From positions 496,001 to 560,000 of the forward strand of contig NZ_FNZG01000001.1 in assembly GCF_900109195.1 (NCBI RefSeq): a DNA stretch of 64,000 bases. Direction: 5' to 3'. The notes beneath the pieces are model-generated. The model searched no databases. It was not told where the DNA came from and saw nothing but the letters and a program-made list of their open reading frames with translations. The stretch is from Pseudooceanicola nitratireducens (GTDB lineage Bacteria; Pseudomonadota; Alphaproteobacteria; Rhodobacterales; Rhodobacteraceae). Below are positions 53,906 through 61,464 of the stretch, piece after piece; the first letter of the stretch is position 1; every line of letters starts with the position of its first letter. A program made the position numbers and the translations under genes.

Positions 53906-53960
53906 TTGGCCCCGGTCTAGTCGGCCCCGGTCTGATTGGCCTGGGTCTGATTGGCTGGAT
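53901..53960. repeat. 15-bp tandem repeat, four units, starting at the receptor stop codon
   Basis: Units TCTGATTGGCCCCGG, TCTAGTCGGCCCCGG, TCTGATTGGCCTGGG and TCTGATTGGCTGGAT run from 53901 to 53960. The first unit contains the end of the receptor gene (Phe-TGA). A partial CTGATCC follows. Confidence 0.75.
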
Positions 53961-54163: not shown

Positions 54164-54748
54164 ATGAGCGGGACACTTACCATTGTAGTCGTCGAAGAGG
54201 ACCGGGATCGGGCCGTGGCCATCGTGGATGCGCTGATGGACAGCGGCGACCACGAGGTCCACGTGATCGCCGACCCTTCCGGGCTGGCGCGCAAGATCGC
54301 GGCCCATGCGCCTGACATCGTGCTGATCGACATCGACCATCCGACCCGCGACATGATGGAGGAGCTGACGCTTGCCTCCGGTCCGCTGGACCGACCCGTG
54401 GCCATGTTCGTGTCCGGCGCGGCGGGCGGTCTGGCGCAGGCCGCCATCGAAAGCGGCGTGTCGGCCTATGTGGTCGACGGGCTGGCCCCCGACCGGCTGA
54501 AGCCTGTCATCGACACCGCCATCGCGCGCTTCCGCATGTTCCGCCAGATGCGCACCGAACTGGCCGAGACGCGCCGCGCCCTGGAAGAGCGCAAGGTGAT
54601 CGACCGCGCCAAGGGCCTTCTGATGAAGGCCAAGGGAATCGACGAGGACGCGGCCTATGCCCTGCTGCGCAAGACCGCCATGGATCAGGGCCGCCGCGTC
54701 GCCGAGGTCGCCGAGGCGCTGGTCACCGCATCGGGGCTGTTGTCATGA
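54164..54748 (+). CDS. nasT: Nitrate-responsive ANTAR antiterminator NasT
   Basis: The protein has 194 residues. The N-terminal receiver-like domain has VVVEEDRDRAVAI and LIDIDHPTRDMMEEL (Asp near 56). A coiled coil (MRTELAETRRALEERKV) leads to the C-terminal ANTAR RNA-binding domain with DRAKGLLMKAKGIDEDAAYALLRKTAMDQGR. NasT binds leader RNA to prevent termination, and NasS holds it inactive until nitrate is present. The start is ATG 54164 or 54146. The stop overlaps nasS by four bases. Confidence 0.95.
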   Translation: MSGTLTIVVVEEDRDRAVAIVDALMDSGDHEVHVIADPSGLARKIAAHAPDIVLIDIDHPTRDMMEELTLASGPLDRPVAMFVSGAAGGLAQAAIESGVSAYVVDGLAPDRLKPVIDTAIARFRMFRQMRTELAETRRALEERKVIDRAKGLLMKAKGIDEDAAYALLRKTAMDQGRRVAEVAEALVTASGLLS

Positions 54749-55935
54749 TCCCGGTCAGCCTTCCCGTCGCCTATGTGCCACTTGTCGATGCCGCGCCGCT
54801 GATCATCGCCCAGGACATGGGCTTTGCCGCGGCTGAAGGCATTTCGCTTGATCTGGTCTCTGCGCCCTCCTGGTCCTCGGTCCGGGACATGCTGGCCTTT
54901 GGCCGGGTGGACGCCGCGCATCTTCTTTCGCCCATGCCCGTGGCCATGGGGCTGGGACTGGGCGGCGTGACGACCGAACTGGTCGCGCCTTATGTCCTGT
55001 CGGCCAATGGCAACGTGATCGGTGTCGGCCGCACGCTGGAGGCCCGCCTGCGCGAGGCAGGCTATGGTTTCGACTTCACCGATGCTGCCGCTGCCGCCAC
55101 GGCCCTGGCCGCCGTGCTGAAACAGGGCGGCAATGCGCCTGTGACCTTCGGCGCGCCCTTTCCCTTCTCGATGCACGTCGAACTGCTGCGCTATTGGTTC
55201 GACAGCACGCCGCTGCGCGAGTGCCGGATCGACATCCGCGTGGTGCCGCCGCCGATGATGGCGCAGGCCCTGGCCGATGGCGATGTGGATGCCTTCTGCG
55301 TCGGCGAACCCTGGGGGTCGGTCGCGGTCGAACAGGGGGCAGGGGCCCTGATGCTGCCGGGCAAGGCGATCTGGGAATTCGCACCGGAAAAGGTGCTGGC
55401 CGTGCGCCGCGCCTGGGCCGAGACCGAACCGCATCTGCTGTCGCGCCTGATGCAGGCGCTGTGGCGGGCCGGGCGCTGGCTGTCGCAGCCCGACAGCCGC
55501 ACCACCGCCGCCGAGATCCTGTCGCGCCCGGAATGGCTGGGCATTCCGCCCGAACTGATCGACCGCGCGCTGTCGGGCCGGTTCACCATTTCCACCCGCG
55601 CCGAACAGCGCGAGGTCGAGGGGTTCCTGAACTTCCACGACGGTGCGGCGAACTTCCCCTGGCGCAGCCAGGCCAAGTGGATCGCCGACCGCATTGCCTT
55701 GGCCAACGGTTTGGACCGCGCCGAAGCACAACGCATCGCCGGCGGCATATTCCGCGCCGACCTGTACCGCGAACACATGGCCGGCGGCGACGTCGATCTG
55801 CCCGGGGCGTCAGAAAAGCTGGAAGGCTCGATTCGTCACGGAACCGCGGTGGCGTCGCACAAAGGCGGGCTGATCCTGCAGCCGGATCGGTTCTTCGACG
55901 GGCGCATTTTTGACCCCATCCCGGACGAGTGCTGA
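54745..55935 (+). CDS. nasS: Nitrate sensor NasS (NrtA-like, cytoplasmic)
   Basis: The protein has 396 residues. It has the nitrate-binding fold of NrtA/CmpA (VPLVDAAPLIIAQDMGFAAAEGI, VDAFCVGEPWGSVAVEQG, QAKWIADRIALANGL) but no signal peptide, so it should stay in the cytoplasm. This is the mark of NasS, which binds NasT and lets it go on binding nitrate or nitrite. The last 40 residues include a Tyr-Arg-rich segment (IFRADLYREHMAGG). A leader region follows before nrtA. Confidence 0.94.
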   Translation: MIPVSLPVAYVPLVDAAPLIIAQDMGFAAAEGISLDLVSAPSWSSVRDMLAFGRVDAAHLLSPMPVAMGLGLGGVTTELVAPYVLSANGNVIGVGRTLEARLREAGYGFDFTDAAAAATALAAVLKQGGNAPVTFGAPFPFSMHVELLRYWFDSTPLRECRIDIRVVPPPMMAQALADGDVDAFCVGEPWGSVAVEQGAGALMLPGKAIWEFAPEKVLAVRRAWAETEPHLLSRLMQALWRAGRWLSQPDSRTTAAEILSRPEWLGIPPELIDRALSGRFTISTRAEQREVEGFLNFHDGAANFPWRSQAKWIADRIALANGLDRAEAQRIAGGIFRADLYREHMAGGDVDLPGASEKLEGSIRHGTAVASHKGGLILQPDRFFDGRIFDPIPDEC

Positions 55936-55981
55936 AAAAAGCGTCACTCTGCCCCGCATTTCGGTGCAATCCGCCCCGAAA

Positions 55982-55997
55982 TGGCGCTGCAGCGGCA
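55982..55997 (+). promoter_or_regulatory. Weak sigma-54-like promoter before the nitrate leader
   Basis: TGGCGCTGCAGCGGCA has GG and GC spaced by ten bases, as sigma-54 promoters need. The -12 part is GGC rather than TTGC. A start near 56008 would place both ANTAR hairpins in the transcript. A sigma-70 promoter is not evident instead. Confidence 0.25.
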
Positions 55998-56042
55998 AAC
56001 CCCTCTTTTCGCAACTGCAGCAATGCGTCATCAATAAGACAT

Positions 56043-56108
56043 CGAAGCACAATGGCGTGCTTCGTAACGAATTCTCCCGACGCTTGGGATCCTTGAGCAA
56101 GGCTGCTC
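56043..56108 (+). promoter_or_regulatory. Two-hexaloop ANTAR (NasT) recognition element in the nrtA leader
   Basis: First hairpin: CGAAGCAC 56043-56050, loop AATGGC 56051-56056, GTGCTTCG 56057-56064 (8-bp perfect stem). Second hairpin: GAGC 56095-56098, loop AAGGCT 56099-56104, GCTC 56105-56108. Both loops have six bases with A at position one and G at position four, the signature of RNAs bound by ANTAR proteins. The element lies between nasS and nrtA, and nasT is two genes upstream. The second stem is short (4 bp plus one G-U), so it is the weaker call. Confidence 0.75.
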
Positions 56109-56160
56109 GCATCGTGTTGACCTCCTCCCTGTCAGCACGCGCGGCGACCTTATGTTTTTG

Positions 56161-56182
56161 GTCCGGGCGTTCTTTCCCGGAC
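56161..56182 (+). terminator. Probable leader terminator controlled by NasT
   Basis: GTCCGGG/CCCGGAC (7 bp, loop eight) lies 53 bases after the second ANTAR hairpin and is followed by TTCATGG, just before the nrtA ribosome site AAGGAAAG. The U run is short. Another hairpin, CGTGTTGAC/GTCAGCACG at 56113-56139, lies between and could be part of the switch. Confidence 0.45.
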
Positions 56183-56201
56183 TTCATGGAAAGGAAAGAG
56201 A

Positions 56202-57569
56202 ATGAAGAAATTGCTACTTTCGCTGGCAGCGACGACCGCCCTGACCGCACCGGCCTTTGCCGAGATGCTGGAACTGGAAAAGGACGAGCTGACCTTTGGC
56301 TTCATCAAGCTGACCGACATGGCCCCCCTGGCCGTGGCCTATGAGCAGGGCTTCTTCGATGACGAAGGCCTGTTCGTGACGCTGGAAGCCCAAGCCAACT
56401 GGAAGGTCCTGCTGGACGGCGTGATCGACGGCACCCTGGACGGCGCGCATATGCTGGCCGGTCAGCCCCTGGCGGCCACGATCGGGTTCGGCACCGAAGC
56501 GCATATCATCACCCCCTTCTCCATGGACCTGAACGGCAACGGCATCACCGTCTCGAACGAGATCTGGGAACAGATGAAGCCGAACATCCCGACCATGGAA
56601 GACGGCCGCCCGCAGCACCCGATTTCCGCCTCGGCCCTTGCCCCGGTGGTCGAAAAGTACAAGTCCGAAGGCAAGCCCTTCAACATGGGCATGGTCTTCC
56701 CCGTGTCGACCCACAACTATGAACTGCGCTACTGGCTGGCCGCCGGCGGCCTGCACCCGGGCTATTACTCCACCGACAACATCACCGGCCAGATCGGCGC
56801 CGACGTGCTGCTTTCGGTGACGCCCCCGCCGCAGATGCCTGCCACGCTCGAGGCCGGCACGATCTATGGCTACTGCGTGGGCGAACCGTGGAACCAGCAG
56901 GCTGTCTTCAAGGGCATCGGCGTTCCGGTCATCACCGACTATGAGCTGTGGAAGAACAACCCGGAAAAGGTCTTTGGCATCACCGCCGAATTCGCCGAGG
57001 AATATCCCAACACCACCAAGGCCGTGGTCAAGGCGCTGATCCGTGCAGCCCAGTGGCTGGACGAAAACGACAACGCCAACCGTGAAGAAGCGGTCGAGAT
57101 CCTGTCCCGTCCCGATTACGTCGGCGCGGATTACGAGGTCATCGCGGCCTCGATGACCGGCACCTTCGAATACGAAAAGGGCGACAAGCGCGAAGTCCCC
57201 GATTTCAACGTCTTCTTCCGCTACAACGCGACCTATCCCTACTACTCGGACGCGATCTGGTACCTGACCCAGATGCGCCGCTGGGGCCAGATCGCCGAGG
57301 CCAAGTCGGACGAATGGTATGACGAGGTCGCCAAGTCGGTCTATCGCCCGGACATCTACCTGGAAGCCGCCCGCCTGCTGGTCGACGAAGGCCTGGCGAA
57401 CGAGGCCGACTTCCCCTGGGACAGCGACGGCTACAAGGCACCGACCCCGGCCGCCGACATCATCGACGGCATCCCCTACGACGGGAAAGCCCCGAACGCC
57501 TACCTGGAAAGCCTGCCGATCGGCCTGAAGGGTGCGCAGATCGTCGAAGGCTCTGAAGTCAAAGGCTGA
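56202..57569 (+). CDS. nrtA: Nitrate ABC transporter, periplasmic binding protein
   Basis: The protein has 455 residues. A Sec signal ([17 protein letters not shown]) is followed by [26 protein letters not shown], then [25 protein letters not shown] and [13 protein letters not shown], the NrtA/CmpA nitrate/bicarbonate-binding fold. Compared with NasS it is exported and longer. AAGGAAAG precedes the ATG. It is first in the nrtA-nrtB-nrtC-GAF-nirB-nirD transcript, and probably read only when NasT relieves the leader terminator. Confidence 0.95.
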
Positions 57570-58825: not shown

Positions 58826-60535
58826 ATGACCAAGCAACCGATCATCCAGTTCAAGAATGTCCACAAAAGCTTTGGCGAGGGCATCCACGCCAAGCACGTG
58901 CTGAAAGACGTCGATCTTGCGGTGGAAGAGGGCGAATTCCTTGTGCTGCTGGGCTTCTCGGGTTCGGGCAAGACGACGCTGATCAACCTGATGGCCGGGT
59001 TGGAAATGCCCACGAAAGGCGAAGTCACCTACAAGGGCAAGCCCGTCACCGGGCCGGGGCCGGAACGCGGCGTGATCTTCCAGTCCTATTCGCTGATGCC
59101 CTGGCTGACCGTGAACGGCAACGTCGGGCTGGCGGTGGACACGATCTTCCCCGATCTGCCCAAGGCCGAACGTGCGAAGAAGGTCGCCCATTACGTCAAG
59201 ATGGTGGGCCTGTCGCACGCCACCACCCGCCGCCCCGCCGAGCTTTCGGGCGGCATGCGCCAGCGGGTCAACGTGGCCCGCGCCCTGGCCATGAACCCCG
59301 AGGTGCTGTTGCTGGACGAGCCTCTGTCGGCGCTGGACGCGCTGACCCGCGCCAATCTGGCCGACGAGATCGAGGCGATCTGGAACGAGGAAAAGCAGAC
59401 CTGCGTGCTGATCACCAATGACGTGGACGAGGCGATCCTGCTGGCCGACCGCATCATCGCGCTGAACCCCGATGGCACCCTGGGCGAGGAATTCCGCGTC
59501 ACCCTGCCGCGTCCGCGCGACCGGTCGGCCATGAACACCGACGATACGTTCAAGACGCTGCGCGCGAAGGTCACCAACTATCTGATGGACGCGGGCATTC
59601 AGGCCAAGGCCGAAGGCAAGCGGGTGCTGCCGGATATCGAACCCAACCACCTGCCCTCGGCCGTTGTGGATGCGCAGAAGGGCATGATCGACAACAACTT
59701 CCTGTCCTTCGATCACCTGCACAAGATCTATCCCACGCCCAAGGGCCCGCTGACCGTGGTCGAGGATTTCAACCTCAAGCTCAACCGGGGCGAATTCATC
59801 TCGCTCATCGGGCATTCGGGCTGCGGCAAATCCACCGTGCTGACCATGGTCGCCGGTCTGAACGACGTGTCCAAGGGCGTCATCAAGCTGGACGGATACG
59901 AGGTGCGCGGGGCCGACCCGGAACGCGCCGTGGTCTTCCAGTCGCCGAACCTCTTCCCCTGGCTTTCGGCCAAGGAAAACGTCGCGATCGGGGTCGAGAA
60001 AGTCTATCCCAAGGCCTCGATGCAGGAACGCCAGGACGTGGTGGAATACTACCTTGAACGTGTCGGCCTGGCCGATGCCATGGACCAGCCCGCGTCCTCG
60101 ATGTCCAACGGCATGAAACAGCGCGTCGGCATCGCCCGGGCCTTTGCCCTGTCGCCGAAACTGCTGCTGCTGGATGAACCCTTCGGCATGCTCGACAGCC
60201 TGACCCGCTGGGAATTGCAGGAAGTCCTGATGGAGGTCTGGTCGCGCACCAAGGTGACCGCCGTCTGCGTCACCCACGACGTGGACGAGGCGATCCTGCT
60301 GGCTGACCGCGTTGTCATGATGACCAACGGCCCGCAGGCCACGATCGGCAAGATCACCAACGTCGACCTGCCGCGCCCGCGCACCCGCAAGGCCCTGCTG
60401 GAGCATCCGGATTACTACAAGTACCGCCAGGAAGTTCTGGATTTCCTTGAGGAATACGAACACGGCGCAAAGCCCAAGGCCAAGCCCGCAGCTGTTGCCG
60501 CCAAGGGCACCACCAAAGGCAAGGAAGCCGCGTGA
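58826..60535 (+). CDS. nrtC: Nitrate ABC transporter double ATPase (NrtC/NrtD fusion)
   Basis: The protein has 569 residues with two full ABC domains. Domain 1: Walker A GFSGSGKTT (43-51), signature LSGGM (140-144), Walker B LLLDEP and Asn at the switch position in LITNDVDEA (198). Domain 2: Walker A GHSGCGKST (329-337), signature MSNGM (426-430), Walker B LLLLDEP and His in VTHDVDEA (484). So one composite site looks degenerate and one canonical. The start is ATG 58826. A GTG at 58817 is also in frame. There is no NrtA-like C-terminal domain, unlike cyanobacterial NrtC. Confidence 0.94.
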   Translation: MTKQPIIQFKNVHKSFGEGIHAKHVLKDVDLAVEEGEFLVLLGFSGSGKTTLINLMAGLEMPTKGEVTYKGKPVTGPGPERGVIFQSYSLMPWLTVNGNVGLAVDTIFPDLPKAERAKKVAHYVKMVGLSHATTRRPAELSGGMRQRVNVARALAMNPEVLLLDEPLSALDALTRANLADEIEAIWNEEKQTCVLITNDVDEAILLADRIIALNPDGTLGEEFRVTLPRPRDRSAMNTDDTFKTLRAKVTNYLMDAGIQAKAEGKRVLPDIEPNHLPSAVVDAQKGMIDNNFLSFDHLHKIYPTPKGPLTVVEDFNLKLNRGEFISLIGHSGCGKSTVLTMVAGLNDVSKGVIKLDGYEVRGADPERAVVFQSPNLFPWLSAKENVAIGVEKVYPKASMQERQDVVEYYLERVGLADAMDQPASSMSNGMKQRVGIARAFALSPKLLLLDEPFGMLDSLTRWELQEVLMEVWSRTKVTAVCVTHDVDEAILLADRVVMMTNGPQATIGKITNVDLPRPRTRKALLEHPDYYKYRQEVLDFLEEYEHGAKPKAKPAAVAAKGTTKGKEAA

Positions 60536-61464
60536 TGGACGGAGCGACGGATATGACGACCCGGCCTTTCATCGAGGTCTCAGAGGTCTGGGTGCCCGAA
60601 GGCGACAGGCTGGTCCTGTCCAAGGGCACCTATGGCGACCTGGCCGAATTTGCCTCGGTTTCGGAACGCGAAAGCTTTGCCCGGGGCGAAGGCCTGCCGG
60701 GCAAGGCCTGGGACGAAGGCCGCCCCGTGGTCCTGAAAGAATTCGACGGCAGCTATTTCAAGCGGACCGAGGCCGCCAAGGCCGCAGGTCTGACCGCCGC
60801 CGTGGCCATCCCGGTCTTTGCCGGCACGCAGCTGAAGGCCGTGCTGGTGACGCTGTGTTCGGATGACGACAGCCGCATGGGCGCGATCGAGGTCTGGTCC
60901 GGCGAAGGCAACATGCTGACCCTGGAAGACGGCTATTACGGGGCGGCGAAACAGTTCGAGTTCGTCTCGCAGCACGTGCATTTCCAGCGTGGCCAGGGCC
61001 TGCCCGGCGGCGTCTGGGGGGCCAATACCCCGCTGCTCTTCCGGGATCTTGGCGCGGGCTACAAGTTCGTGCGCTCGGAAAGTGCGGGGCGTGCCGGTCT
61101 GACCTGGGGCCTGGGCCTGCCGCTGCCCTCGCCCACGGGGCGGCCCTATGTGCTGACCCTGCTGACGGCCACGGGCACCCCGCTGGCCCGCCGGTTCGAA
61201 ATCTGGGACGCCCGCGCCGCCCGCGTCGGCACCGCCAACGAAGCGGTGCTTATCGACGGCATCTGCGCCCGCGAAGGAAGCCTGTACGACCACGACACCG
61301 AACGCCGGATCAAGGCGTTCCAGGGCCCGATCGGCCAGGTGCTGGGCACCGGCCTTCCTGTCGTCGACGCCAGCGCGGCAGGCCAGCACGGCTATCGCAC
61401 GCTGGTGGCCCTGCCGATCCATTCATCCCGCGAAGTGACGCATGTCGTCGCCTGGTATTGCTGA
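60535..61464 (+). CDS. Triple GAF-like repeat protein of the nitrate cluster
   Basis: The protein has 309 residues, and its ATG overlaps the nrtC stop (TGATG). Three related units are visible. Unit 1 (about 13-108) has GEGLPGKAW and AVAIPV. Unit 2 (about 117-211) has GQGLPGGVW and GLGLPL. Unit 3 (about 221-309) has GQVLGTGLPV and LVALPI. The spacing and G-x-G-LPG followed by a beta strand with P are typical of GAF domains. No enzyme, DNA-binding or membrane part follows. It may bind a small nitrogen compound or FeS-like cofactor. Its function is unknown. Confidence 0.8.
   Translation: MDGATDMTTRPFIEVSEVWVPEGDRLVLSKGTYGDLAEFASVSERESFARGEGLPGKAWDEGRPVVLKEFDGSYFKRTEAAKAAGLTAAVAIPVFAGTQLKAVLVTLCSDDDSRMGAIEVWSGEGNMLTLEDGYYGAAKQFEFVSQHVHFQRGQGLPGGVWGANTPLLFRDLGAGYKFVRSESAGRAGLTWGLGLPLPSPTGRPYVLTLLTATGTPLARRFEIWDARAARVGTANEAVLIDGICAREGSLYDHDTERRIKAFQGPIGQVLGTGLPVVDASAAGQHGYRTLVALPIHSSREVTHVVAWYC

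Follow-up and report, generated by a model that had tools for sequence, protein, structure and literature searches.

What kind of switch occupies the gap between nasS and nrtA in Pseudooceanicola nitratireducens, and how many RNA hairpins does it use? An earlier note on this DNA had read the gap as an ANTAR element with two hexaloops, followed by a candidate terminator. We analysed the whole 64,000-nucleotide stretch (the window) together with the same gap in related genomes, and we read the gap as a nitrate-responsive NasT antitermination leader with its terminator at 56099-56151, a reading to which we give a probability of about 0.85. The element itself is of a known kind; its layout, with three hairpins that we call P1, M and P2, is a new variant. 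In the excerpts of the literature on which we draw throughout, known ANTAR elements are described as dual-hairpin RNAs with a short linker, and the nitrate-using family members here appear to have three hairpins.

Three genes frame the gap.

54164-54748, plus strand: nasT, ANTAR antiterminator protein (open reading frame with translation; Pfam ANTAR; PDB relatives)
54745-55935, plus strand: nasS, nitrate/nitrite-sensor protein (PF13379; role from the excerpt of PMC3795266)
56202-57569, plus strand: nrtA, nitrate-binding protein, first controlled gene (PF13379; tblastn in relatives)

The genome that carries them comprises 4.06 Mb in 32 contigs. Behind nrtA lie an ntrB-like permease (its score is under the curated cut-off), a protein that has two NtrCD-type ATPase stretches, a GAF-domain protein and nirB. 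The place of the GAF-domain protein (60532-61461), between the nitrate ABC genes and nirB, is an observation made in passing. For nasT we chose the ATG at 54164 as the start; the listed reading frame opens at 53951.

The earlier note had put a NasT gene with a C-terminal ANTAR domain two genes upstream of nrtA, and that is its position: nasT is followed by nasS, and the ANTAR domain of its product scores 77.9 bits against a Pfam cut-off of 27.3. The receiver-like domain scores under its cut-off. PDB entries related in sequence to NasT are 1s8n (a putative antiterminator), 4akk (a nitrate regulatory protein, which we take to be NasR), 6wsh and 6ww6 (EutV) and two weaker ones. Entry 6WW6 is EutV according to the excerpt of PMC8934654, and 6wsh is taken likewise. 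When NasT is aligned with EutV, a comparison read by eye with chain numbering shifted by 2, residues K143, R168, M172 and R177 are kept, N173 becomes D and R175 becomes G. An ANTAR target is expected to share its genome with an ANTAR protein, and NasT is the one such protein found in this genome.

The leader contains the following elements.

56043-56064, plus strand: hairpin P1, loop AATGGC at 56051-56056 (hairpin search; conserved and covarying in relatives)
56075-56089, plus strand: middle hairpin M, loop 56079-56085, G4 at 56082 (hairpin search; conservation in relatives)
56094-56109, plus strand: hairpin P2, the predicted antiterminator, loop AAGGCT at 56099-56104 (hairpin search; conserved in relatives)
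56099-56151, plus strand: terminator hairpin with core 56113-56139; it and P2 cannot form together (lowest-energy fold; kept in relatives)
56150-56159, plus strand: terminator U-tract TTATGTTTTT (directly read; T-run in relatives)
56161-56182, plus strand: GC-rich hairpin between the U-tract and the ribosome site, without a U-tract after it (hairpin search; fold)

An ANTAR target has a pair of hairpins, each with a stem of 3 or more pairs and a six-base loop with A at position 1 and G at position 4, and P1 and P2 form such a pair upstream of nrtA, as the earlier note had said. P1 is CGAAGCAC-AATGGC-GTGCTTCG, with the perfect 8-bp stem claimed for it, and P2 is GAGC-AAGGCT-GCTC at 56095-56108, with four pairs (56095-56098/56105-56108) and a further T-G pair (56094/56109). 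No other A1/G4 hexaloop on either strand of the 64 kb has as long a Watson-Crick stem as P1 (8 pairs; the runner-up has 6). When both stems must have at least 4 pairs and the loops must lie 25-65 nt apart, P1/P2 is the sole pair on the plus strand of the 64 kb, and the minus strand yields one pair, neither stem of which reaches 6.

A first search with the leader DNA within the genus matched 3 of 22 genomes, including its own, and these were too few, so loci were taken via NasT. We used the best 80 of 364 NasT relatives from named genomes, and the leaders are thus near ones; the closest NasT among them is that of Primorskyibacter flagellatus (NZ_BMFJ01000001.1). A nasS match and an nrtA match occurred together in 78 of the 80 loci (L040 and L045 were dropped), and with two loci from the genus (L003, L004) and the window added we obtained 81 leaders, 79 of them distinct. 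In L055, L077, L084 and L086 the rule put no nasS stop before nrtA, so the distance from nrtA was used to delimit leaders. Of the 79, 77 are in the alignment; L075 and L099 were left out for their long linkers.

All 79 distinct leaders have both P1 and P2 upstream of nrtA. P1 has G4 in 79, A1 in 77 and a C-G closing pair in 79, counts that are partly due to selection where the search pattern demands G4 and the C-G pair. P2, searched by its own GAGC/GCTC stem 80-150 nt before nrtA, is found as GAGC-N6-GCTC at 99-141 nt in 79/79 leaders, with G4 in 79, A1 in 75 and A2 in 67. In the 77-row alignment, which was built without the loop pattern, the closing C and G of P1, the G4 of P1, the P2 stem and the G4 of P2 are invariant.

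The P1-M-P2 structure is paired in 92.0% of the cells of these 77 sequences, against 22-47% when the partners are slid. Cells changed on both sides number 124 against 37.0 in shuffles, and the covariation score is 0.304 against 0.130 shuffled, with 0/500 shuffles as high in either case and 8 pairs with changes on both sides; a caveat to this analysis is that related sequences may outscore shuffles. Nearly all of the covariation resides in P1, where both sides change in 6 of 7 pairs, and a little in M (2 of 3 pairs). P2 adds none because its stem never varies in the 77 aligned rows. A comparison of the same gap in related genomes had been set beforehand as the test of the ANTAR element upstream of nrtA, and the conserved A1/G4 loops and compensating changes in the P1 stem bear that element out.

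The two-loop account holds for P1 and P2, but it is incomplete: it missed a conserved third hairpin, M, between them, and also the U-tract at 56150-56159. In the window M reads TCCC-GACGCTT-GGGA, with a seven-base loop, G1 and G4, and thus fails the strict hexaloop/A1 rule. A C-G pair closes M in 78 of 79 leaders, and the remaining one, L095, has a T-A-closed hairpin. Loops of seven bases are the most frequent among the 78 (67 leaders), followed by six (7) and eight (4); the most conserved position of the seven-base loops is G4, kept in 64 of 67, and the other positions are kept in 35-52. Position 1 of these seven-base loops is A in 51 and G in 9. We searched the 79 linkers for a hairpin with three G-C pairs, a 6- or 7-base loop, a purine at position 1 and G4: 62 have one, whereas 200 shuffled sets average 1.1 and never exceed 5. 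When the rule on the loop is dropped, the count is 72, with a shuffled mean of 8.7 and a maximum of 15. M is well supported as a conserved structure.

M can also appear as an A1/G4 hexaloop on other stems, in L200, L201, L203, L156, L158 and L175; L156 and L158 come from the same family as the window and L175 from another family of the class. We examined five plasmid loci (L200-L204). The loops are AATGGC, AATGAT and AAGGGC in Paracoccus ferrooxidans (L203), AACGGC, AATGAT and GACGAT in Paracoccus denitrificans HAMBI_2443 (L200), and AACGGC, AAGGAC and, in a third hairpin whose 3-pair stem was identified by eye, AATGAC in Rhodobacter sp. CZR27 (L201). For P. yeei (L204) the rule gave two hairpins, not three, and Ensifer adhaerens (L202) shows two loops with a spacing of 21.

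Does NasT bind M, or does M only shorten the distance between P1 and P2? On the second view the leader is a plain two-loop element in which P1 and P2 alone bind NasT, and M is a spacer that folds the 30-nt linker without contacting the protein. Folding M does leave 15 unpaired linker bases (10 + 5) rather than 30 in the window, P2 is the one paired part that varies less than the M stem, and the seven-base loop with G1 in the window suits a spacer. A spacer, however, needs no conserved loop, and yet G4 stands out from the other loop positions, some relatives present the A1/G4 hexaloop on a different stem, and a G4-bearing M-like hairpin is kept, as read by eye, in 3 of 4 cysG-linked elements (L234, L235, L237) among the further matches described below. 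We consider the spacer view unlikely, if serious, and on balance we favor M as a putative NasT site. We also weighed, by eye, a pseudoknot that would join the M loop (UGAC in relatives) to the terminator, and dropped it. Separately, AATT is found between P1 and M (56065-56074 in the window) in 59 of 78 leaders, in a segment that is single-stranded in our model.

Linker lengths bear on the same question. Linkers in eut leaders measure 5-12 nt, and lengths of 3 or 14 nt drastically cut induction (excerpt of PMC3369931); 20 added nt abolish eut antitermination (excerpt of PMC8934654), and a survey of actinobacterial ANTAR targets accepted 2-25 nt (excerpt of PMC8164766). From P1 to P2 the linker measures 30 nt in the window and between 28 and 50 nt in 78 leaders, and in all of them it lies outside both published ranges. 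If M is counted, the linkers of the window fit, with 10 nt from P1 to M and 5 nt from M to P2 (28 and 20 from loop to loop). The M-P2 linker, 4-9 nt in 78 leaders and 5-6 nt in 68 of them, fits the eut range. The P1-M linker fits in about half of the leaders: it is 9-12 nt in 37/78, 13-18 nt in 39/78 and 29-30 nt in 2/78, as measured on unbroken stems with mismatches disallowed, which lengthens some. Because this linker exceeds 12 nt in 41/78 leaders, we lowered our trust in the switch model from 0.9 to 0.85.

Outside the family, where results vary, hairpins were called by a rule that misses elements (29/76 loci called) and may pick the wrong P1. Two loops 18-27 apart were found elsewhere in the class in L128-L130, L137, L138, L144, L149, L151, L152 and L155 and further in L160, L161, L165, L166, L168, L169 and L173. 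In other classes 12 of 20 loci were called, six with the 18-27 spacing (L181, L183, L185, L196, L197, L198) and the other six at 37-67. A spacing of 18-27 is roughly one rung of the ladder formed by P1, M and P2 in the window, and we therefore read this leader as two overlapping ordinary motifs.

Where, then, does transcription stop? In the lowest-energy fold of 56036-56160, the P2 loop and the P2 3' arm become part of one long hairpin at 56099-56151, and 56113-56139 makes up its inner nine pairs. The earlier note had described 56113-56139 as an extra hairpin outside the classic picture. The hairpin exists, but as the core of the terminator; the full terminator hairpin spans 56099-56151 and, in keeping with the classic arrangement, shares bases with P2. 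The fold with P1, M and the terminator has an energy of -41.1 kcal/mol in the window, against -34.0 kcal/mol for P1, M, P2 and the core, and in the P2 state the remaining core ends 10 nt before the U-tract. Overlap of the second hairpin with the 5' arm of a U-tract intrinsic terminator, a mark of ANTAR targets, is found in the window and in 79/79 relatives.

By rule, a terminator T-run is present in 79/79 distinct leaders, and the U-tract of the window is the poorest of them, with 6 T in 12 against a median of 9. All six bases of loop 2 pair into the terminator in 67 of 79 leaders and at least three in 79 of 79. Position 3 of this loop and its terminator partner form A-T in 35 leaders, G-C in 38, G-T in 5 and a mismatch in 1. 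Pairs between loop 2 and the terminator arm average 6.84 of 7, against a mean of 6.58 and a maximum of 6.68 in 500 arm shuffles, a margin that is small because the arms are alike. A terminator scan of the window listed two sites, both on the minus strand (one of them P1 read backwards), and 56099-56151 was not among them; the rule takes loops of 3-8 and a T-tail 0-2 bases past the stem, and the core loop here has 9. That core loop (56122-56130) reads CTCCTCCCT, which resembles an anti-Shine-Dalgarno sequence, and CTCCTCC also occurs in the terminator core loop of some relatives, e.g. L077, L081, L090 and L095.

A covariance model of P1-M-P2, R1, matches 125 of 394 family genomes (E 0.01), NasT is found in 160 of them (E 1e-20), and 123 have both, in a set that includes the source genomes of R1, with strict filters that lose weak matches and with relatedness uncorrected. 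The two genomes with R1 and no NasT have weak matches; NasT occurs without R1 in 37 of its 160 genomes. The genome of the window has one strong match, the nrtA leader, and the next reaches 19.1 bits (E 0.16). Across the class 5 of 385 genomes matched, and R1 is close to family-specific.

These results bear on the idea that the hexaloops are incidental to a protein-independent terminator or another leader device, such as a riboswitch or translational attenuation. A strong terminator that could fold without protein is indeed present, yet the whole window gives 0 matches to Rfam release 15 at the gathering score, and the near-invariant loop bases together with NasT in 123 of the 125 R1 genomes point to an ANTAR reader, which makes this idea very improbable. 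Within 55500-56700 Rfam gives three matches below threshold; the one that covers the gap is anti-hemB, at 17.4 bits where 49.5 are required, and we judged these matches to be chance.

The inverted repeat at 56161-56182 is present, and its last base is the end coordinate of the earlier note. If the candidate terminator of that note is 56161-56182, the next bases are TTCATGG and form no U-tract, and this hairpin is unlikely to be a terminator. That 56161-56182 is the regulated terminator or a mask of the ribosome site, with 56113-56139 an unrelated extra, is hardly credible. In 63 of 79 leaders (a count without shuffle control) the stretch from the T-run to the start codon does hold a hairpin with 5 or more Watson-Crick pairs, but its sequence, length and place differ, and by this rule 16/79 leaders are without it while the upstream T-run terminator is in all 79. 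The hairpin may shield the end of the mRNA or affect initiation.

We return to the NasT antitermination leader and to how it would work. From published work on P. denitrificans, nitrate or nitrite dissociates NasS-NasT, and NasT binds the nasA leader (excerpt of PMC3795266); by analogy we infer that the same switch operates in P. nitratireducens. Without nitrate, NasS would hold NasT, and the nascent leader would fold P1, M and then 56099-56151, sequestering the P2 loop and 3' arm. The terminator with UUAUGUUUUU would then halt RNA polymerase ahead of nrtA. With nitrate or nitrite, NasS would free NasT, which would bind the A1/G4 loops and keep P2 closed. What then remains of the terminator would be its core (56113-56139), separated from the U-tract by 10 nt, and polymerase would continue into nrtA and the later genes. 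M would relay NasT from P1, the recruiting hairpin, to P2, the antiterminator hairpin, with P1-M-P2 acting as two overlapping dual-hairpin motifs.

Tentatively, and short of even odds, we propose that in Rhodobacterales NasT occupies all three hairpins of its target, which would form a three-rung ladder with a NasT dimer on each loop. It is speculation that three loops with one dimer each match the NasT of P. denitrificans, roughly a hexamer of about 130 kDa (excerpt of PMC3795266). Walshe and co-workers proposed that EutV visits two hexaloops in turn (excerpt of PMC8934654), and by analogy an extra rung would fit such turn-by-turn visiting. If the ladder is real, ANTAR regulators are not limited to dual-hairpin RNAs, and spacing limits act from rung to rung. 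The three-hairpin layout also offers a way to test how two loops can serve an ANTAR dimer that reportedly does not hold both at once (excerpt of PMC8934654). Among the open-access papers listed, judged by title, by the opening of the abstract or by the excerpts consulted, we found no account of a third ANTAR hairpin.

Among the closest known systems is the nasA leader of P. denitrificans, which shares the NasS/NasT pair and the place behind nasTS (excerpts of PMC3795266, PMC5424462). The spacing is similar as well, with HI and HII reported 46 bp apart in PD1222 and P1 and P2 loops 48 apart in HAMBI_2443. Unlike the window, where nrtA follows, the next gene there is nasA, and the excerpts name HI and HII and no middle hairpin, whereas HAMBI_2443 has one with the loop AATGAT. 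No T-run follows P2 in the leaders of P. denitrificans HAMBI_2443 (L200) and P. ferrooxidans (L203); in these Paracoccus nasA leaders, with three ANTAR-type hairpins and no T-run, termination may be different, perhaps by Rho. Mutation of HI severely lowered transcription on nitrate, and a 3-base change in HII left nitrate induction relatively unaffected and raised expression on ammonium 2-fold (excerpt of PMC5424462). If HI corresponds to P1 and HII lies in P2/terminator, these mutants would fit our model in part; if HII is P2, the P2 loop would count for less than the model says.

Other ANTAR systems resemble parts of this leader. The Klebsiella NasR-nasF leader shares the nitrate signal, A1/G4 loops in P1 and P2 and a P2 that overlaps the terminator, but has a one-protein sensor, NasR, with a NIT domain, and two hairpins (excerpt of PMC3369936). 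The EutV-eutP leader of Enterococcus faecalis likewise has dual A1/G4 hairpins with the second inside the terminator stem (excerpts of PMC3369931, PMC8934654), whereas its linker is short (5-12 nt) and the 30 nt between P1 and P2 in the window are bridged by M. Bradyrhizobium diazoefficiens shares NasT antitermination, at the nosR leader, but the target there is denitrification (excerpt of PMC6759348).

Upstream of P1, a sigma-70 scan for a promoter gave 0 matches and a sigma-54 fit by eye failed. A block at about 55940-56040 is patchily conserved in relatives and is perhaps the promoter.

Besides correcting the termination site in the leader, the analysis yields further candidate targets through the covariance model, e.g. 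sirohaem synthase genes. We fetched 14 R1 matches, chosen by eye because they lie away from nasTS, opposite to it or in a genome without NasT. Six precede a PF13379 binding protein (NrtA/NasS-like) and four precede sirohaem-synthase (CysG-like)/methylase genes; L242 has no open reading frame by rule, and L238, L246 and L247, which have no T-rich tail in the next 60 bases, look like chance. Sirohaem synthase and methylase products make the cofactor of nitrite reductase. In L234, L235, L236 and L237 (genomes G092, G109, G282 and G113), second copies of the element with a T-rich tail lie before genes for CysG or tetrapyrrole-methylase-domain proteins, and NasT may run a small regulon in these genomes.
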